Below are positions 7,517 through 64,000 of a DNA stretch of 64,000 bases, in pieces. The number at the start of each line of letters is the position of its first letter. Positions within the stretch are counted from its first letter, which is position 1. Under the pieces are notes generated by a model, which was not told the DNA's origin, did no database searches, and saw only the letters and a list, made by a program, of their open reading frames with translations. The DNA comes from Leptodontidium sp. MPI-SDFR-AT-0119 (taxonomy: Eukaryota > Ascomycota > Leotiomycetes > Helotiales > Leptodontidiaceae): NCBI GenBank assembly GCA_020726505.1, contig JAHLEZ010000001.1, positions 6,634,001 through 6,698,000 on the forward strand, in the 5' to 3' direction. A program made the translations under genes and the position numbers.

Positions 7517-10500
7517 ATGGCGACGAGTTCTTCCAACTTTCTCGTTAGTAGGAGGCATCATGGCGTATATTGGAAAGTAAGTGCTATATTCTGAAAAATT
7601 ATCTGTTGCTAATAGTAATAATAATATAGGAGGTAAGTAGTAGCAGTGTTGAGAACAGAGAGAAGAGAGTCGCTGATCGCAGGCATCTTGGTGGTGATTT
7701 TAGGGTGTAAGTAATAGTAGTGTCGAGAATAAAAACAACAGAGTTGCTGACCGCAGGCGTCTTGGTGGTGATTTTAGTGGGTAAGTAGTAGTAGTATCGA
7801 AAAGAGAGAGAAGAGAGTCGCTAATCGTAAGCGTCTTGGTGATGATTTTAGAATGTAAGTAGTAGTAGTATCGAGAATAGAGAGAATAAAGTCGCTGATC
7901 ATAGGTATCTTGGTGGTGATTTTAGGTTGTAAGTAGTAGTAGTGTCGAGAATAGAAAGAAGAGAGTCACTGATTATAATTGTCTTGGTGGTAATTTTAGG
8001 CTGTAAGTAGTAGAAGTGTCGAGAATAAGAGAGAAGAGAGTCGCTAATCGCAGGCGTCTTGGTGGTGATTTTAGAGTGTAAGTAGTAGTAGTGCCGAGAA
8101 CAGAAAGAAGAGAGTCGCTAATCGCAAGCGTCTTGGTGGTGATTTCAGGGTGTAAGTAATAGCAGTATCGAGAACAGAGAGAAAAGAGTCGCTAACAGCA
8201 GGCGCCTTGGTGGTGATTTTAGCGTGTAAGTAGTAGTAGTGTTAAGAACAGAGATAAGAGAGTTGCTAACCGCAGGCGTCTTGGTGATGATTTCAGCTTG
8301 TAAGTAGTAGCAGTGTCGAGAACAGAGACAATAGAATCGCTGACCGCAAGTGTCTTGGTAATGATTTTAGTATGTAAGTAGTAATAGTGTCGAGAATAGA
8401 GAAAACAGAGTTGCTAACTACAGGCGTCTTGGTGGTGATTTTAGGTTGTAAGTAGTAATAGTGTCGAGAACAGAGAGAAGAGAGTCGCTGACTATAGTTG
8501 TCTTGGTGGTAATTTCAGCCTGTAAGTAGTAGTACTATCGAGAACAGAGAGAAGAGAGTCGCTGACCGCAGGCGTCTTGGTAATGATTTCAGGATGTAAG
8601 TAATAGTAGTATCGAGAATAGAGAGAACAGAATCGCTAACCGCAGGCGTCTTGGTGGTGATTTTAGGAAGTAAGTAGTAGTAATATCGAGAATAGAAAAA
8701 AAAGAGTCGCTGACCGCAGGCGTCTTGGTGGTGATTTTAGCATGTAAGTAATAGTAGTATCGAGAATAAAAGGAAGGGAATCACTAACCGCAGGCGCCTT
8801 GGTGGTGATTTTAGCGTGTAAGTAGTAGTAGTGTTGAGAACAGAAAGAAGAGATTCGCTAATGTTATGTCTTAGGAAGTACGTATAATTGGATTAACCCG
8901 GTAATATGGCTAATTGGCATTTTTAAAACTTTTGCTAGGCGGTAAGTTAGCCTATACACTTCTCCATATCATTCAATGCATATGTAGATTAAAAAAATAC
9001 AGGAAGCTAAGGACGAATGGACCCCCTCGCCTGACAGCAAAATCCGGTTGGATTTGTCTTCAAAATTATGCAATCGCTGTCGCACGATCGACCTAGGGAC
9101 TTATCTCTCTTCGTTACCTTATCTAAATAACAGCTGTGATCTGTGTCAAATCCTCTCTAAAATCCCCGAGGATGCTAGGAACAAAAATCCTGAGATGCGG
9201 CTGTCTGAAGCTTCGGAATACGTAAGGATTCGTGCTGTACCTGGTCTGTGCTCTACTTTGTTGTGCTGGATAGATGCTAATACTATTTAGAGTCGAAACC
9301 AAAACACATTTCAAACCCCAAAGGTAATTCTAGAAGCTCGCTCCGTTTGGAACTAGTTAGGGAATGGATTCGAATATGTGACGAAGGCCAATGCTCGCGA
9401 AGTGGTGGATGCTGTCCTGATCCCGATAGAAGTCGGATGCCAACCCGAGTCATTGATGTGGGAGATGGCTACACTGCGTGCCTTGTTTTGACAGACAAAG
9501 AAAATATGAGTGAAGGAGCGCAATACATTGCTTTGTCCCATTGCTGGGGCATGCTTTCGGAAAAACAGAGGGAAAAGTCGCGTACTACTACTAACAACGA
9601 GAAGGAATGGAGGACGCAAGGATTCCCAGTTAAAGAATTGCCACGGACATTTCAAGATGCAATCAGCGTCACTCGAGAACTCGGTCAGCGATATCTCTGG
9701 ATCGATTCGCTTTGCATTATTCAAGGAGAGGGCGGAGACTGGGCTACTGAAGCTACGAAGATGGAAGCAGTCTTCAAGAATGCTTACTGTACGATAGCTG
9801 CCACCTCTGCTAAAGACTCAACCGATGGATTTCTCAACCGGCCGCTTAAAGAGATAGATTTGCGGTATGTGGTAGTGCCTAGGTCCTCTAAGCCCTCAGA
9901 CGGCAAGGTCTATATTTGCACGTCAATCGATGACGATTTCGATGGCGACGTGACGAAGGGGGTCTTGAATACACGAGCTTGGGTGTTACAAGAACGAGCC
10001 TTGTCACGCCGAACGATCCATTTCACGAAGAGGCAAACGTATTGGGAGTGTGGCGGTGGGGTACGTTGCGAAACGCTCACTCATATGAAGAAGTAAGTCT
10101 ACATCTAGGGTTTAGTTTAAAGGCACCGTTTCATCTTTACAATTCGCTTTTCCTTATTTATGACCGAGCATTTACCTAAATAAACCTACTAATATCTAAT
10201 CAAATCAGCGCGAACTTGTCGTTTCAAAGTGACCCAGAATTTCCTCGCTCTATTAAATATCGTTATGTGTCTACTCAAATACAGCTTTTCCAATCTCTCT
10301 TCAGAAATTACTCGACATTTGGCATTGCAGAGCACACAGACAGACCCGTTGCGATTGAGTCACTAGCTAAGGCGTTGGCTAAAGCTCTCGATACTGTGGT
10401 CTACTATGGGATCTTCGAATGCTTCCTCCACCGAAGTCTCATGTGGCAACCGGCACAAAATGCTTCGCTTGAGAAGATAACCTATGAGGATAATAGGATG

Positions 10501-10971
10501 CCTCCATCATGGTCTTGGATGCTATATCACGGGCAGATCCAGTATTTGCAACTGGAATTTAGAGAAGTTGAGTGGGATCATAGTGTTCAATTTATAGACG
10601 ACAAGCCGAGCGACTCGGGTACTAGCTCTAAGGGTCATGGGTATGTCTTGGAAGCTCGGGTGAGACGACTGCGAGATTGCAAGGTCAACTCCGAGGGCGT
10701 TATACTCGACAATGATGCCAACGAAGTCGGACTTGTAAACTTTGATACTCAATCAGGCAACTTCCCTCCAGAAGGACCTTGTGCTATCATGGGAAGAGAG
10801 ACTAGAGATGATGGTGATGTTGATGGTTTGGAACGGAAATATTACGTGTTATTTTTGGCAGAAGGTGCGATGCAACTAGGGCGCGGAACATTTACGAGGG
10901 TTGGAATGGGTTCGATCCAGCAACGTTTTCTACATTTTAGTGATCAAGACGATATGGCACGGATCTTCTAG
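7517..10971 (+). CDS. HET-domain protein whose 5' end is split into 19 three-base exons
   Basis: HET domains act in fungal heterokaryon incompatibility, triggering cell death on non-self contact. Exon 1 (7517-7576) has a good ATG context and 20 codons. Nineteen one-codon exons follow, at 7630, 7704, 7778, 7852, 7926, 8000, 8075, 8149, 8223, 8297, 8371, 8445, 8519, 8593, 8667, 8741, 8815, 8875 and 8939. The next acceptor, 9002, enters in frame a typical HET N-terminus (L-C-N-R-C-R-T-I-D-L, then C-D-L-C). The HET core from about 9347 has Y-I-A-L-S-H-C-W-G, Y-L-W-I-D-S-L-C-I-I-Q and T-R-A-W-V-L-Q-E-R-A. A 116-nt phase-2 intron (10093-10208) leads to the last exon; TAG ends at 10971. One junction is unresolved: between 9222 and 9350 the frame changes. 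A good-looking 69-nt intron (9222-9290) removes a TAG but leaves the next exon out of phase. Weak donors at 9232 or 9244 would fix it. Otherwise the gene is damaged there. Confidence 0.75.
7633..8874 (+). repeat. Tandem array of 74-bp units, each a complete intron plus one codon
   Basis: Seventeen units begin at 7633, 7707, 7781, 7855, 7929, 8003, 8078, 8152, 8226, 8300, 8374, 8448, 8522, 8596, 8670, 8744 and 8818. The period is 74 bp (75 once; the last is shortened). Every unit starts GTAAGT, has CTRAY about 25-30 bases before its end, and ends TTTTAG, TTTCAG or CTTAG. Exactly three bases then precede the next GTAAGT. Those three bases differ between units while the rest is strongly conserved. 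Intron 1 (7577-7629), intron 19 (8878-8938) and intron 20 (8942-9002) have the same layout but unrelated interiors. Confidence 0.95.
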
Positions 10972-13271: not shown

Positions 13272-16200
13272 TCAAATGCATGCACCAAAAGACTTCAAGA
13301 GTTCTATAATCTCCAAGTGGCCGCCCTCAGCAGCTGCTTGTAGCGCAGTCCGTCCACCCATACCAGGACCAACAGCATTGACATCAGCCTTAGCATCGAG
13401 GAGTCTCTGAACGACGTCCAAGTGGCCGCCCTCTGCAGCTGCTTGCAGCGCAGTCCGTCCATCCCAAGCAGCAGCAGCATTGACATCAGCCTTAGTATTG
13501 AGGAGTCTCTGAACGACCTCCAAGTGGCCACCCTCAGCAGCTGCTTGTAGCGCAGTCCGTCCATTACTAGCAGCAGAAGCAGTAGCATTGACATTAGCCT
13601 TAGCATCGAGGAGTCTCTGAACGACCTCCAAGTGGCCGCCCCCTGCAGCTGCTTGTAGCGCAGTCCGTCCACGCCAACCAGCAACAGCATTGACATCAGC
13701 CTTAGCATCGAGGAGTCTTTGAACGATCTCCAAGTAGCCGCCCTCAGCAGCTGCTTGCAACGCAGTCCGTCCACCTCCATAAGCAGCAGCAGCATTGACA
13801 TCAGCCTTAGTATTGAGGAGTCTCTGAACGACCTCCAAGTGGCCACCCTCAGCAGCTGCTTGTAGCGCAGTCCGTCCATTACTAGCAGCAGAAGCAGTAG
13901 CATTGACATTAGCCTTAGCATCGAGGAGTCTCTGAACGACCTCCAAGTGGCCGCCCCCTGCAGCTGCTTGTAGCGCAGTCCGTCCACCCCAATCAGCAGC
14001 AGCAGCATTGACATTAGCCTTAGCATCGAGAAGTCTTTGAAGGACTTCCAAGTGGCCGCCCTCAGCAGCTGCTTGCAACGCAGTCCGTCCACCTCCATAA
14101 GCAGCAGCAGCATTAACATCAGCCTTAGCATCGAGGAGTCTTTGAACGACCTCCAAGTGGCCGCCCCCTGCAGCTGCTTGCAGCGCAGTCCGTCCATAAC
14201 TATTAGCAGCAGCGGCATTGACATCAGCCTTAGCATCGAGGAGTCTCTGAAGGACCTCCAAGTGGCCGCCCCCTACAGCTGCTTGTAGCGCAGTCCGTCC
14301 ATCATTATCAGCAGCAGCAGCATTGACATCAGCCTTAGCATCGAGGAGTCTCTGAACGACCTCCAAGTGGCCGCCCCCTGCAGCTGCTTGTAGCGCAGTC
14401 CGTCCACGCCAACCAGCAACAGCATTGACATCAGCCTTGGCATCGAGGAGTCTCTGAACGACGTCCAAGTGGCCGCCCTCCGCAGCTGCTTGCAGTGCAG
14501 TTCGACTACCCCCCTCACCAACAGTAGCAGCAGCAGCATTGACATCAGCCTTAGCATCGAGGAGTCTTTCAACAACCTCCAAGTGGCCGCCCTTAGCAGC
14601 ATGTAGAAGTCCCTGTGATAACCCTTTCTCGTGCTTGACGAAGTTAATCAAGATGTTTATATAATTCAGGCGGCCAAGTACTGCATAGTGGCACATCAAG
14701 GCATCCCCTTCTGTGGAACTTAGTCCAGCAATAGATACAATTTGTAGAAACACTGCAAAATGGTCGTGCTTGTCAATCCATTCGTAAACGGCAGGGACTC
14801 GGTCGTGAAACTCTGCCTGTGACCAAGGAGTTCTCGCTAGACCGTGCGAGCCGCGTATCATTTGCTTCCACAGATTCCAAGTTATAGATTTGCCCTCTTC
14901 AAAATTGCGGGTGTGAAGTAGCCAGTAGTCTAAAGCGTACTCGAGGAAAGGGTGTCCTAACTGTAGCGTAGCCATCGAGTCTTCAAGACTATTCTTGATC
15001 ACTATCATGCTCTCCTTATTGTTTGTGGATTTTTGATGGCTCTGGGGGTGTAGCCTCTGCGTCATATGCATTATGCGTGATGTGACTCCTTCAACTTCCA
15101 CGGTTTTCTCAATAATGTAGTTCGGAAGACGAGTTGGCAGGGCCGCAGGATTTCGGATCAAATCAGTCTTGAAATCGTTCGAGTTGAGGTAGGTTACACA
15201 TATCTCGCCAATGAAATGATCGGCTTCTTCCAACTTGATATGAAAACTCTGTAGGCTCGAGTCTGATGGTTGTTCTAGGAGATGCTGTAGGACGCTGCGA
15301 TGAGTGAATTGAACAATTTGTAATTCCTCGTCTAGCTGGACCAGATTCTCACACCAGGCAGTGATGCGCTCCAGGCCGCTTGGTCTCTTTCCTCTGATGG
15401 AATAGGGTATGCCAGGCTCATATGAGAGGGCTTCCCTCAGCATATCAAGTGTGAGCGCTCGTTTGGTTGCTGCAGCCCATTGGAAAATGTGGCTGGCAGT
15501 TTTGGCAGAGCCACGCTTCACGATCCGTTTCATAGCGCGGTCGAAAGTTTCTCCCAAGTTTTTAGGGAGAGTTCTAAGCACTTCCCGGATCTCGTCGTCG
15601 CAAGTGCATTCGCATATTTCCGCAATTTGGTAGTCGACCCAGAGAAACCTGCCAAACTTAGTAAAGCTATTCGATCTTCAAGGAGTAAGCACACACATGC
15701 CGTTCGCACCATCAATCAACGCTTCAATGATTTCCTGAGCTAAAGCAGGGTCCTGTAAAATGAGTTGTTCCTGTGGAATGACCTGTTCTTGTAGTATGAG
15801 TTGTTCCCCCTGCCTGAGAGTTATGGTCTCTCGCGTGTATGCCTCAATATCGGCCTGGACTTCACGACAGTTGGTAGACTTCTCCTGAGAAGCTGGAAAC
15901 CATCTTCGAATATCCGTTGATACGCTGCTTCGGCCGACAAGGAAAAGCTTCGCTTTAGAATTGGGAATTGATATGATAGATGAGAGACTTCGAAGCAGGA
16001 CGTTACGCTCCTCCTTTTCGAATTCATCCAAAGCATCGATGACAATATAGAACGTAGAAAATTTGTTACACAGTGCTGAAGTAACTTGTCAATTGTGTCC
16101 ATGTCTACGTAAGTGGTCTCAAATCCGCTTAGCTGTCTCTCGACTTCCCCAGTTATGTTGTCGGGCTTGAGGGACTGTCGGATGATAGATCTTAGTACGG

Positions 16201-28406: not shown

Positions 28407-31400
28407 ATGCGTCTGCTACAATACAACAACGATGGCGAGTTCAGCCTGACCCGGTTCTTTGACGATATTCCCCCATATGCTATACTCTCACACACATGGG
28501 GACCAGAGGAGGTCACCTTCGAGGACATGAAGAAGGGGAATGGAACAACCAGGGCGGCGTTTGACAAGATCCGATTTTGCGGAGAACAGGCTAGACGTGA
28601 CGACTTGCAATACTTCTGGGTTGATACGTGTTGCATTGACAAATCGAGTAGTGCTGAGCTCGCAGAAGCCATTAACTCTATGTTTCGATGGTACCGCGAT
28701 GCGGCGAAATGCTACGTCCTTTTGTCGGACGTTCCGAGAACGGACGTCGACATCACTGACCAGTCCTATCAGCAGCCCTGGGAATCGGCATTCCGAACAA
28801 GCAGATGGTTGACACGAGGCTGGACCCTTCAAGAGCTTCTTGCCCCTAAGTCGGTCGAGTTCTTCTCCCAAGAAGGCGAGCGAATAGGTGATAAGAGGAC
28901 GCTAGAGCAACAAGTCCACGAGGTAACAGGAATCGCGGTTCCCGCGCTTCGGGGAGCACCTCTGTCACAATTTGACGTCGAAGACCGGTTATCATGGGCA
29001 GAAGACCGCCAGACTACACGCGAAGAGGATAAGGCATACTCGCTATTTGGCGTTTTCGATATCCAGATCCCCCTCCTCTATGGCGAAGGGGGAAAGAAAG
29101 CGTTGAAGCGGCTCCGAGAGGAGATTGACAAACCTCTAAGGGACAAAGCGTTTAAACGGCTCTGCAAGGAAGGAGACATATCTTTAAAGAGTGAGTTCCA
29201 GAAATTTGATCTTACACTTTTATCCGACGGACTGCTGCCAGGGTTGACTTTCCTTCACGTGACCCAGCTAGGACTCTAAGGGTCCCTGGAGCAACAGCCC
29301 GTAGCGTCTGATCGACAAGCCGAAGCGAGAAGTCAACCCTGGCAGCTGCCCGTCGGATAGCAATTAAGAAAAGCGCTAATCCTCAATTCAGAGCTCGACC
29401 GTCTTCCATCCGCTGCGGGGGCGGCGTTCAATTCATTCGACCGCCAACAAGATCCCACCTGCCTTCCCGACACCCGTGTTGGCCTGCTACAAGAGATATA
29501 CGACTGGACCGATGGACAAGATGAGCGGTGCGTATTCTGGCTCAATGGTTTGGCCGGCACAGGGAAATCGACAATTGCACGGACTATTGCACGGAGTTAC
29601 TATAAGGAAGAGCGCCTTGGGGCCAGCTTCTTCTTCTCAAGAGGTGGCGGAGATGTGAGCCATGCCGGCAAGTTCTTTACAAGTATTGCCGTGCAGCTCG
29701 CCAACAACATACCGTCTCTCCGACGCTACATTTGTGATGCCATTTCTAACTGCAAAGATATTGCAAGCCAGTCCTTCCGTGACCAGTGGAGCCAGCTTAT
29801 CCTCTTTCCATTGACAAAGCTTGGCAGCGACTCGTCATCGTCCTCTTACGTGTTAGTAATCGATGCCCTAGATGAGTGCGACAAAGATGAGCATATTCGG
29901 ATGATTTTGCAACTCTTAGCTGAGCCTCGAACACTAAAAACTGCTCGTCTTCGGGTCTTTTTAACAAGCAGACCTGAAATCTCGATACGCCATGGCTTTT
30001 ACCAGATGCCCGACTCCGAACACCAAGACTTCGTACTCCACAACGTGCCGCCTACGATTGTCAACCACGATATCTCCCTATTCCTGGAATACAATCTAAG
30101 GATAATCAGGCAGGAGTGTACTCTTGGCGCAGATTGGCCAGGCGAAGTGGTTCTGCAACAGCTGGTTCTATACGCTTGTGGTCTCTTTATTTGGGCGGCA
30201 ACGGCATGTCGGTTTATCCGTGAAGGGAGGCGATTCGCACGCGAGAGACTGGATATAATTCTCAAGGGCAGCAGCAGCGCTATTATCGAACCAGAGAAAC
30301 ACCTCGACGAGATTTACCTTGCTGTCCTCCAGAACTCGATCTCCCCGAAATATTCGGACAAAGAGAAAAAGAAGGTATACGATATGTTAAAGTATACGCT
30401 TGGAAGTCTAGTAGTGTTGCTCTTACCTCTTTCTACCTCTTCATTGAGCAGGCTCTTGTACCTTCCTAGGGAAGATGTCGACGCGACCTTTAACGACCTT
30501 TATGCGATCCTTGATATTCCAGAAGACCCGACTCGCCAGCTCCGCCTCCATCACCCTTCATTTCGCGACTTCCTCCTCAGCAAAGATCGATGTGGGGATT
30601 TCTGGGTAGATGAGAAGGATGCACACCAGATATTAGCTACTGGCTGCATACAGCTCATGTCCCAGACACTCAAGAAGGACATTTGCGGAATACATGCTCC
30701 TGGTAATCAAGCTAGCCAAATTGAGAGCAGTCGTCTTCAGAAATGCCTTCCGCCTGAAGTTCAATACGCATGCCTCTACTGGGTTCAGCATCTGCAAAGG
30801 TGTGGTTCTCAGGTTTTTAATAGCGAAGAAGCTCACCGGTTTCTGCAGGTTCATTTACTGCACTGGCTTGAAGCGCTTGGCTGGATGGGGAAGGCTTCAG
30901 AGGGGATTCAAGCAATATTGTCCTTAGAGGCTCATGTTTCTGTTTCGGTGAGCTATCTGTCTATTGTTTATAAGAGTCTAACTAACTTGTCCTTAGGTTA
31001 ATAAAAGCCCCAATTTGCATGCATTTATCCATGATGCAAAGCGATTTGCCTTATATAACCGATCTGTTATTGAAAAGGCACCCCTTCAATTATATTGCTC
31101 TGCTCTTGTCTTTGCGCCAGAAAATAGCATTATTCGAAAGAAGTTCAAGAGTTGTATCCTAGATTGGATTCAGCTGAAACCAAAAGTGCAAGCACACTGG
31201 AACGCGGTGCAGCAGACGCTCGAGGGCCACACTGGCTCTGTCTACTCCGTAGCCTTCTCACCCGACGACAAGCAGGTCGTGTCTGGCTCTGAGGATCGGA
31301 CGGTGCGGCTCTGGGACGCGGCCACGGGAGCCCTGCAGCAGACGCTTAGGGGCCACACTAACCAAGTCTACTCCGTGGCCTTCTCACCTGACGGCAAGCA

Positions 31401-32937
31401 GGTCGTGTCTGGCTCATACGATCGGACGGTGCGGCTCTGGGACGCGGCCACGGGAGCCCTGCAGCAGACGCTCGAGGGCCACACTGGCCAGGTCTACCAC
31501 GTGGCCTTCTCACCCGACGGCAAGCAGGTCGTGTCTGGCTCATACGATCGGACGGTGCGGCTCTGGGACGTGGCCACGGGAGCCCTGCAGCAGACGCTCG
31601 AGGGCCACACTGGCTCTGTCTACTCCGTAGCCTTCTCACCCGACGACAAGCAGGTCGTGTCTGGCTCTGTAGATCGGACGGTGCGGCTCTGGGACGCGGC
31701 CACGGGAGCCCTGCAGCAGACGCTCGAGGGCCACACTAGCCTTATCAACTCCGTGGCCTTCTCACCCGACGGCAAGCAGGTCGCGTCTGGCTCATACGAT
31801 CGGACGATGCGGCTCTGGGACGCGGCCACAGGAGCCCTGCAGCAGACGCTTAGGGGCCACACTGACCAGGTCTACTCCGTGGCCTTCTCACCTGACGGCA
31901 AGCAGGTCGTGTCTGGCTCATACGATCGGACGGTGCGGCTCTGGGACGCGGCCACGGGAGCCCTGCAGCAGACGCTCGAGGGCCACACTGGCCAGGTCTA
32001 CCACGTGGCCTTCTCACCCGACGGCAAGCAGGTCGTGTCTGGCTCATACGATCGGACGGTGCGGCTCTGGGACGTGGCCACGGGAGCCCGGCAGCAGACG
32101 CTCAGGGGCCACACTGGCTCTATCTACTCCGTAGCCTTCTCACCCGACGGCAAGCAGGTCGTGTCTGGCTCTGAGGATCGGACGGTGCGGCTCTGGGACG
32201 TGGCCACGGGAGCCCTGCAGCAGACGCTCGAGGGCCACACTGGCTCTGTCTACTCCGTAGCCTTCTCACCCGACGGCAAGCAGGTCGTGTCTGGCTCTGA
32301 GGATCGGACGGTGCGGCTCTGGGACGCGGCCACAGGAGCCTTACAGCAGACGCTCGAGGGCCACACTAGCTCTATTAACTCCGTGGCCTTCTCACCCGAC
32401 GGCAAGCAGGTCGTGTCTGGCTCTGGGGATCGGACGGTGCGGCTCTGGGACGTGGCCACGGGAGCCCGGCAGCAGACGCTCGAGGGCCACACTAGCTCTA
32501 TTAACTCCGTGGCCTTTTCACCCGACGGCAAGCAGGTCGTGTCTGGCTCATACGATCGGACGGTGCGGCTCTGGGACGCGGCCACGGGAGCCTTACAGCA
32601 AACGCTCGAGGGCCACACTGGCTCTGTTAACTCCGTGGCCTTTTCACCCGACGGCAAGCAGGTCGTGTCTGGCTCTCACGATCGGACGATGCGGCTCTGG
32701 GACGCGGCCACAGGAGCCCTGCAGCAGACGCTCGAGGGCCACACTAGCTCCTTGCCATTGCCAATCTTACGAGTATCCAATCATTGGGTAGTGGAAGGCG
32801 ATACGAATATTCTTTGGCTGCCTCCCGATTATCGGAAAACTCATTCAGCTACTTGGAACAGAAGTCTTGTTATAGGGCATGCATCTGGGAGAATTTCATT
32901 CTTTTGCTTTAAAAAGGAAGCAAAGCTTGTTATGTAG
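28407..32937 (+). CDS. HET-NACHT-WD40 protein (HNWD family, het-e/het-d-like)
   Basis: This is a vegetative incompatibility receptor of the type known from Podospora het-d, het-e and het-r. The HET domain opens M-R-L-L-Q-Y-N, with Y-A-I-L-S-H-T-W-G, F-W-V-D-T-C-C-I-D and T-R-G-W-T-L-Q-E-L-L. A 201-nt intron (29191-29391) joins it to NACHT, with Walker A G-L-A-G-T-G-K-S-T near residue 315 and Walker B Y-V-L-V-I-D-A-L-D-E. A 49-nt intron (30948-30996) leads to the WD40 exon; repeats begin near residue 854 of about 1,426. Both introns fit the phase and no stop interrupts the model, so the gene looks intact. An in-frame ATG at 28338 is an alternative start, but M-R-L-L is usual. NACHT is a nucleotide-driven switch and the WD40 array is the sensor. 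Confidence 0.93.
31219..32730 (+). repeat. Twelve 126-bp WD40 repeats, near-identical
   Basis: Twelve exact 126-bp units, each 42 residues from L-E/R-G-H-T to A-L-Q-Q-T, are followed by one degenerate unit. Changes fall at a few sites: G-S-V-Y, N-Q-V-Y, G-Q-V-Y, S-L-I-N, D-Q-V-Y, S-S-I-N or G-S-V-N after G-H-T; E, Y, V, G or H before D-R-T; and A or V in W-D-x-A-T. These sites correspond to ones reported as hypervariable and under selection in Podospora HNWD genes. Units 2-3 and 6-7 are near-duplicate pairs, showing block duplication. Confidence 0.95.
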
Positions 32938-62736: not shown

Positions 62737-64000
62737 TTATCTAATGTTCAGCCGACTGCCCAGCTGGCGGAGTTTCTGCTTAAAAGACCTCGACTTTGCA
62801 GCTCCAGACTTCGTAAACTCATCTTGGCCTACTTTCGACTCAGCAGACGCAGCTTGCAACGCTTGAAGCCGATCTTCAAGTTGCTTACACCGTTTCGAGG
62901 AAGGCCCTTGGACGGTTGCGTATCCGGACAATGCTCGATTATACATTGCCCTTGCCATGTTTATCCGGTCGGTTTGCGAGTAGAGGTCACCAAAAGCGAA
63001 CACGGTATTCAACGCCGGTAAATAAGACAATGCAAGTTCAAGGCTAACAGCGTCCTCATAACCTTGCAGCGCCCGTTCGTACATCGCCTCCGCCTTGGCT
63101 AGCTTGCCTTGGTCCGCATAGAGCATGCCTAGGTTATAGATCGTTAAGAGTGTCGATGTGTGCTTTGGGCCAAATGTATCCTCGAATCCCTTCATCGCTC
63201 GTCTAATCATTATCTCTGCTTTAGCTAGCTGGTGCTGGAGCCGGTATAGGTTCCCAAGATGACACACCGTATAGAATGTAGATGTATGGTTTGGCCCAAG
63301 TGCTTCCTCGAAACCTTGTAGCGCCCGAGTAAACATGGCTTCCGCTTCTACTAGCTTGCCTTGGTTAGAATAGAGCTCGCCTAGGTTGTGAACCGTATTA
63401 AGTGTCGATGTGTGGTCCGGTCCAAGTGCCTCCTTGTAGCCTTGGAGCGCCCGAACGTACATCTTCTCGGCCTCGACCAGCTTGCCTTGGTCGACGTAGA
63501 GTAGGCCTAGGTTGTTGACCGTTAAGAGTGTTGATGTGTGGTCCGGTCCAAGTGCCTTCTCACAGCCTCTTAGCGCTCGAAGATACATCGCCTCGGCCTC
63601 TGCTAGCTTGCCTTGGTCAGAGTAGAGGGTGCCTAGGTTGTGGACCGTATCGAGTGTCGATGTGTGGTCCGGTCCAAGTGCCTCCTCCTTGCCTTGGAGC
63701 GCTCGAAGATACATCTTCTCGGCCTCTGCCAGCTTGCCTTGGTCTTTGTAAAGGGTGCCTAGGTTATTGACCGTTAAGAGTGTTGATGTGTGGTCCGGTC
63801 CAAGTGCCTTCTCACAACCTCTTAGCGCTCGAAGATACATCGCCTCGGCCTCTGCTAGCTTGCCTTGGTCAGAGTAGAGGGTGCCTAGGTTGTGGACCGT
63901 ATCGAGTGTCGATGTGTGGTCCGGTCCAAGTGCCTCCTCCTTGCCTTGGAGCGCCCGAACGTACATCTTCTCGGCCTCTGCCAGCTTGCCCTGGTTGGCG
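62737..64000 (-). CDS. TPR-repeat protein, 5' part beyond the window (probable STAND C-terminus)
   Basis: The frame is open from the right edge to TAA at 62737. It encodes at least eight 42-residue kinesin-light-chain-like TPRs of the form M-Y-x-R-A-L-Q-G-x-E-x-A-L-G-P-D-H-T-S-T-L, then N-L-G-x-L-Y-x-D-Q-G-K-L-A-E-A-E. The repeats nearest the edge alternate in two near-identical types (K-E-E-A and C-E-K-A), so pairs of repeats were duplicated. The last two are degenerate. The tail is basic (F-K-Q-K-L-R-Q-L-G-S-R). In fungi such arrays usually cap NB-ARC or NACHT STAND proteins with hydrolase or HeLo-type N-termini; that part is outside the window. Confidence 0.88.
   Translation of the reverse strand, partial: ANQGKLAEAEKMYVRALQGKEEALGPDHTSTLDTVHNLGTLYSDQGKLAEAEAMYLRALRGCEKALGPDHTSTLLTVNNLGTLYKDQGKLAEAEKMYLRALQGKEEALGPDHTSTLDTVHNLGTLYSDQGKLAEAEAMYLRALRGCEKALGPDHTSTLLTVNNLGLLYVDQGKLVEAEKMYVRALQGYKEALGPDHTSTLNTVHNLGELYSNQGKLVEAEAMFTRALQGFEEALGPNHTSTFYTVCHLGNLYRLQHQLAKAEIMIRRAMKGFEDTFGPKHTSTLLTIYNLGMLYADQGKLAKAEAMYERALQGYEDAVSLELALSYLPALNTVFAFGDLYSQTDRINMARAMYNRALSGYATVQGPSSKRCKQLEDRLQALQAASAESKVGQDEFTKSGAAKSRSFKQKLRQLGSRLNIR

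Follow-up and report, generated by a model that had tools for sequence, protein, structure and literature searches.

A predicted run of one-codon exons, carried mostly by a tandemly repeated intron, at the 5′ end of a HET-domain gene in Leptodontidium sp.

The window analysed here is a 64,000-nucleotide stretch of contig JAHLEZ010000001.1 from Leptodontidium sp. (Helotiales, Ascomycota). It contains a gene whose product matches the Pfam HET family (E-value 1.2e-29, 104 bits against a curated cut-off of 22.5) and whose 5′ part consists of an array of short intron-like segments. The array and HET gene of the window are together called W, and the related loci elsewhere in the genome C14, C56, C4, C69a, C69b and C10. 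The features of W are as follows.

7517..7576, + strand: exon 1, MATSSSNFLVSRRHHGVYWK, ending in phase 0; the annotated protein P0001 has the same start
7577..7629, + strand: intron 1, 53 nt, not a copy of the array unit
7630..7632, + strand: predicted micro-exon 1, GAG (E)
7633..8817, + strand: tandem array with 16 repeats, each made up of an intron of 71 or 72 nt and the codon that follows it
7704-7706, 7778-7780, 7852-7854, 7926-7928, 8000-8002, 8075-8077, 8149-8151, 8223-8225, + strand: predicted micro-exons 2-9, G W N V A S G R
8297-8299, 8371-8373, 8445-8447, 8519-8521, 8593-8595, 8667-8669, 8741-8743, 8815-8817, + strand: predicted micro-exons 10-17, L Y V P D E H R
8818..8874, + strand: shortened last unit, 57-nt intron
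8875-8877, + strand: predicted micro-exon 18, GAA
8878..8938, + strand: intron, 61 nt, GTACGT donor, not a copy of the unit
8939-8941, + strand: predicted micro-exon 19, GCG
8942..9002, + strand: final intron in the run, 61 nt, without CTRAY
9003..9243, + strand: coding exon with a CxxC..CxLC region before HET, end corrected from 9221
9291..10092, + strand: coding exon, Pfam HET match at about 9524-9994
10209..10971, + strand: last coding exon, including the stop codon

The initial annotation had described 20 intron-like segments at 7577-9002, and each boundary was reproduced on rechecking. All 20 segments, of 53-72 nt, begin with GT (19 GTAAGT, one GTACGT) and end in YAG, 19 contain CTRAY, which is absent from the last (8942-9002), and all 19 gaps between them are exactly 3 nt. 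With splicing as predicted, the 19 micro-exon codons translate as EGWNVASGRLYVPDEHREA and enter the HET frame in the way originally proposed, M..YWK-EGWNVASGRLYVPDEHREA-EAKDEW reading on into HET. The end given for the following exon, 9221, had to be moved to 9243, with an intron at 9244-9290, because P0001 and homologues keep VRI.AVP. The original interpretation was supported in part, as to the gene layout, while the true end of this exon, the paralogs and the repeat structure had been missed: positions 7633-8861 form one 74-bp tandem repeat of 16.6 copies with 83% matches (TRF), which covers 16 segments completely (7633-8817) and a 17th for the most part. The repeated element comprises a 71-nt intron and a single codon; of the 20 introns, all but three (the 1st, 19th and 20th, at 7577-7629, 8878-8938 and 8942-9002) are copies. 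The regular spacing of W thus derives mostly from duplication of one intron-plus-codon unit, and does not represent 20 independent coincidences.

The top protein match for W is P0001, an NCBI protein of Leptodontidium sp. (641 aa, 96% identical over the full length), which starts with the same exon 1, treats a single unit as coding (VSSSNIENRKKRVADRRRLG, which corresponds to the unit at 8670) and leaves out the rest. The N-termini of P0008 and P0012 look, by eye, like exon 1; the models of P0002, P0003, P0004 and P0006 start downstream. The P0002 model begins MKKIQDAK.., a start that appears to be placed inside the 3′ end of the last intron; those of P0003, P0004 and P0006 start far downstream. 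These four models would agree with a gene that starts downstream of the array and does not include exon 1. However, P0001 begins at exon 1, the N-termini of P0008 and P0012 are similar by eye, and the first in-frame ATG after 9003 falls beyond the conserved CxxC..CxLC region, so that we find a downstream start barely credible. Between the exon-1-like start and the HET part of P0012 (Dactylonectria), as in P0017 (Fusarium solani), odd stretches were noticed by eye, which may be misread intron units. At the DNA level, no relatives of the gene were found in IMG/VR or GTDB genomes. The AlphaFold model of annotated P0001 gives pLDDT <50 for residues 1-43, which precede the HET part, and thus predicts no fold for them; residues 21-41 of P0001 differ from the predicted tail, and nothing further is drawn from the model. 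A sequence search for the HET fold against the PDB returned no match, and a structure search returned 184 matches at E≤10 and none at E≤0.001, and therefore no enzymatic reading is offered.

In a genome search with the array DNA, at least four other matches were listed, two of which, on C14, belong to one paralog. The C14 paralog is intact: its 23 introns delimit 22 micro-exons reading EGLGLRLTRERFLRREEEEDEL, a content unlike that of W, all gaps are 3 nt, and the HET exons are open. GT is present in 23/23 of its introns, a terminal AG in 23/23 and CTRAY in 22/23; at the sequence level, the introns of both W and C14 have the U2-type pattern of GT..AG ends and a CTRAY branch-like site. Between W and C14, dN/dS is 0.40, 0.25 and 0.84 for the three HET exons and 1.37 for exon 1, the latter value being imprecise because only 13 differences underlie it. 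C56 is a copy with many stops, and its changes look RIP-like by eye. C4 (L008 / L005) is a truncated copy, its array down to GAG, GAA and GCG and joined to a truncated HET start, which shows loss of array units. GAG, the first micro-exon of W, is also the first in C14, C4, C69a and C69b. In the flank of the C14 copy (L002 3886-4275) lies an ORF with a weak DUF3435 match (E-value 0.0046, 16.4 bits, below the 25.8 cut-off), possibly a fragment of a mobile-element gene.

A scan for chains of very short exons covered both strands of these loci, the window and 21 further regions with HET matches or fragments; about 40 more genomic HET matches lie outside it. Chains of 3-nt exons were found in 3 of the 21 regions (the diverged paralogs C69a, C69b and C10, all with introns other than those of W) and in none of the other 18. 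No chains of 4-nt or 6-nt exons occur in the scanned loci and the window on either strand, and the 5-nt and 7-nt chain matches all fell within the 3-nt arrays. C69a has 10 micro-exons, with a repeat unit of 67 bp, and a protein search with the first 150 residues of its product gave nothing at E≤0.001. C69b has three, GAG, GAC and GAC, with a repeat unit of 68 bp (two counted by the scan, the first read by eye). The HET frame is interrupted by stop codons in both of these loci.

The third locus, C10, has five micro-exons (TAC AAT TTT CCC AAA) between six introns of 52-71 nt, which are 45-60% identical pairwise and do not lie in a tandem repeat. All six introns have a plausible donor and CTRAY, five end in YAG and one in AAG, and together they connect an open exon of 413 codons with the HET exon, each of them in phase 0. 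With unrelated introns flanking five predicted 3-nt exons between in-frame coding exons, C10 is the strongest control. Homologues of the C10 product have a protein-kinase domain before HET. One of them, P0122 (Amylocarpus), is annotated with the exact outer boundaries of C10 (NDD/LDDTW join), and the outer exons are joined directly in three (P0122, P0123 and P0124) of the five site-covering homologues that keep the upstream exon end; P0125 keeps one residue and P0126 four residues at the micro-exon site, while a sixth homologue of this type, P0121, uses an earlier donor and has no micro-exon residues. The exon joins of the homologues at this position indicate that the site is common to several genera. 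P0126, a kinase-HET protein of Stipitochalara, has KDIV in place of the five C10 micro-exons, which could be a partly resolved micro-exon run. A K-L pair at the position of the micro-exon AAA and the first codon of the next exon occurs in 3 of 14 aligned HET proteins (P0084, P0104 and P0119), a weak hint, too little to count, that the last C10 micro-exon is translated.

The specificity of the 3-nt spacing was assessed across the whole 77-Mb genome with exact matches to a two-micro-exon motif, GTAAGT-N40..70-AG-NNN-GTAAGT-N40..70-AG-NNN-GTAAGT. The 47 matches lie in six places (C1 16, C14 19, C69a 8, C68 2, C10 1 and C56 1), compared to 0 matches genome-wide for the reversed control motif, 0 for the motif with 4-nt spacing and 0 with 2-nt spacing, and chance spacing was set aside on these counts. 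Of these places, five coincide with 5′ ends within this HET group. The sixth, C68:271117-271242 (- strand), has no HET match nearby among the matches listed. A HET tree of 23 rows was built with six array genes, C56 among them; C4, which is without the domain, was left out. The array genes all fall on the same side of a single branch (86/92 support; recovered in 88% of bootstrap trees; 0/500 shuffles as low) in a tree of which many other forks are weakly supported, and arrays persist among HET paralogs that share about 50% identity or less.

Alignment of 35 units from W and C14 showed that all 11 core splice columns (GTAAGT, branch CT.A, AG) are invariant, compared to 32 of 71 intron columns overall (P = 5e-5), and that the remaining branch columns vary only as CT[AG]A[CT]. 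The same test on 8 splice columns in each array separately is weaker than the pooled one (P = 0.0036 in W, 0.05 in C14). None of 86 GT/AG ends is broken in the live W and C14 arrays, compared to 7 of 26 in C56 (P = 1.8e-5, the seven being counted by eye). Many of the introns being duplicates, their signals are not independent. As judged from these patterns, unit-by-unit splicing of the array is likely. The gene with consecutive one-codon exons that had been claimed for the window is well supported by comparison, from an intact paralog with 22 such exons and diverged paralogs with 10, 5 and 3, from the invariant splice columns and from their decay in C56.

The codons themselves behave differently from the introns. 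Ranked by pairwise difference between units, codon positions 1, 2 and 3 are placed 2, 1 and 21 of 74 columns in W, 3, 1 and 8 of 74 in C14, and 1, 2 and 3 of 67 in C69a; one intron column outranks codon position 1 in C14, and intron columns 30 and 33 of the W unit alignment, three bases apart, are four-state in W and not in C14. The pairwise differences at positions 1/2 (W 0.72/0.76, C14 0.63/0.73, C69a 0.72/0.64) are about 5-8 times those of intron sites, which have means of 0.158, 0.088 and 0.108, respectively. There are 13 codons for 13 amino acids in 16 units of W, and 7 codons in 19 units of C14. At four-fold degenerate third positions, the base is always T in W (9) and C14 (12) and always C in C69a (4), so that 0/108 pairs differ, and this last exon base may be held by splicing. 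Changes in the introns are mostly transitions, whereas those in the codons are mostly transversions. The pattern is of the hnwd kind, the units being alike and a few codons strongly diversified, as seen here between units within one genome of one strain.

These observations bear on two other readings of the array. Firstly, it could leave most transcripts as one 1.43-kb intron (7577-9002), with the unit sites being decoys or relics and the codons untranslated. The frame is kept either way, the C10-type proteins P0122, P0123 and P0124 join the outer exons directly, and P0001 skips all units but one. However, gene finders handle tiny exons poorly, according to PMC8831610, and removal as one intron gives no cause for the invariant splice columns and their decay in C56, for the excess of non-synonymous variation with constant four-fold sites, or for the exact 3-nt spacing between the unrelated introns of C10; we consider it unlikely. 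Secondly, the array could be a neutral minisatellite in an intron or leader, altered by RIP-like mutation, with codons of no meaning. Such an origin would fit W units that are tandem copies and intron differences that are mostly transitions, but not the high ranking of codon positions 1-2 in W, C14 and C69a, where most changes are transversions, nor the persistence of arrays across HET paralogs as diverged as those in the tree, and we hold it to be very improbable.

We infer, with reasonable confidence, that the array is a minisatellite of introns in which each repeat brings one codon; stepwise splicing is predicted to assemble these codons into a tail at the N-terminus that is hypervariable. 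The short introns would likely be removed in order through intron definition, with the growing exon abutting the following GTAAGT after every step; stepwise removal is proposed because a 3-nt exon cannot serve two spliceosomes at once. Recombination among the near-identical introns would add, remove or swap single codons, and, as the unit is an intron plus one codon, its gain, loss or exchange would change the tail by whole residues in frame. The number of micro-exons does differ, with 22 in C14, 19 in W and a reduced copy in C4. Selection would favour new tail residues, as in the specificity part of a self/non-self recognition gene, and the HET domain of the gene would give the response; by analogy with the hnwd genes, the tail may be the specificity segment of a recognition gene. 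This layout likely allows the gene to alter a short tail of its protein by single residues. The broader proposal, to which we give an even chance, is that this is a new device for rewriting protein sequence, present in four lineages of one HET clade of this genome: a specificity tail of 3 to 22 residues written one residue per tandem intron, in which the introns would serve as recombination scaffold and the splice signals as punctuation, and single amino acids could be inserted, deleted or shuffled with the frame intact.

The initial annotation had raised the possibility that exon skipping yields length variants of the N-terminus. Regulated skipping of symmetrical micro-exons could indeed make the locus an isoform generator varying a few residues: with 3-nt micro-exons, skipping any number keeps the frame, and the products of flatworm micro-exon genes (MEGs) are described as varying likewise in PMC4350168 and PMC7653826. 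However, this leaves the divergence of non-synonymous positions between units and paralogs unexplained, and the near-identical introns offer no evident basis for unit choice; we regard it as quite doubtful. Micro-exon number differs among paralogs and the three-base exons are hypervariable at non-synonymous positions, a pattern that favours differences among repeat units and among gene copies over length variants made by exon skipping.

To our knowledge, W would, if spliced as predicted, be the longest known run of one-codon exons. Runs of micro-exons divisible by three, in flatworm MEGs, and isolated 1- to 3-nt exons are already known. Spliced as predicted, the array would also put intron definition and stepwise splicing to a stringent test in nature, and would represent a new means of diversifying a recognition surface.

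In the MEGs of parasitic flatworms, many very small exons with lengths divisible by three follow one another directly (PMC7653826, PMC4350168), and these genes appear limited to platyhelminths according to PMC4350168. Under the operational rule given in PMC7653826 (a minimum of 7 exons, of which half or more are shorter than 70 nt with a length divisible by three), 20 of the 23 exons of the predicted W model qualify by size (the 60-nt exon 1 and 19 of 3 nt), and the predicted gene would count as a MEG, but the W gene belongs to Leptodontidium, an ascomycete, and is therefore not classed as a flatworm MEG. In contrast to the MEGs, W is a fungal HET gene in which every micro-exon is one codon, the introns form a tandem repeat and the splicing is predicted. 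The hnwd / NWD genes of Podospora are allorecognition genes in which tandem units are homogenised and a few codons diversified, as described in PMC2873952; there, however, the repeat unit is a coding WD40 repeat, whereas the W unit is an intron with one codon coding. A minisatellite with an intron as the repeat and one codon as cargo was not found in the open-licence literature searched.

Single exons too small for exon definition, like those of W, are described for the Arabidopsis APC11 gene, with a 1-nt exon for which the authors propose intron definition and stepwise (recursive) splicing (PMC4674806), and for the Drosophila homothorax (hth) gene, with a 3-bp exon (PMC7392893). Unlike those of W, they do not form an array and are not known to be hypervariable. 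In filamentous fungi, functional microexons were previously undescribed according to PMC11121469 on Trichoderma Xlr2, which cites Iotti 2012 on Tuber among its fungal microexon references; in contrast to W, the transcription factor Xlr2 has a single, regulated micro-exon. Like the W array, introners and stwintrons are families of near-identical introns in fungi, but they are spread to many genes, whereas the W array runs head to tail in one gene. A dispersed introner family was set aside as an explanation, array DNA being present only at the loci of its own family among the matches listed.

The compared gene models misread, skip or start beyond such arrays, which constitutes a blind spot of annotation, and the N-termini of other fungal HET proteins may therefore be wrong too.

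Other repeats are present in the window. Tandem arrays of 105- and 126-bp units, at 13311-14600 and 63266-63996, respectively, have unit lengths divisible by three and are probably coding. A pair of long ORFs lies at 29550-32937 (+ strand). A P-loop-like GTGKST stretch is present in the first and about a dozen near-identical WD40-type repeats (126-bp repeat) in the second, and by eye the pair resembles an NLR-like gene of the NWD kind.
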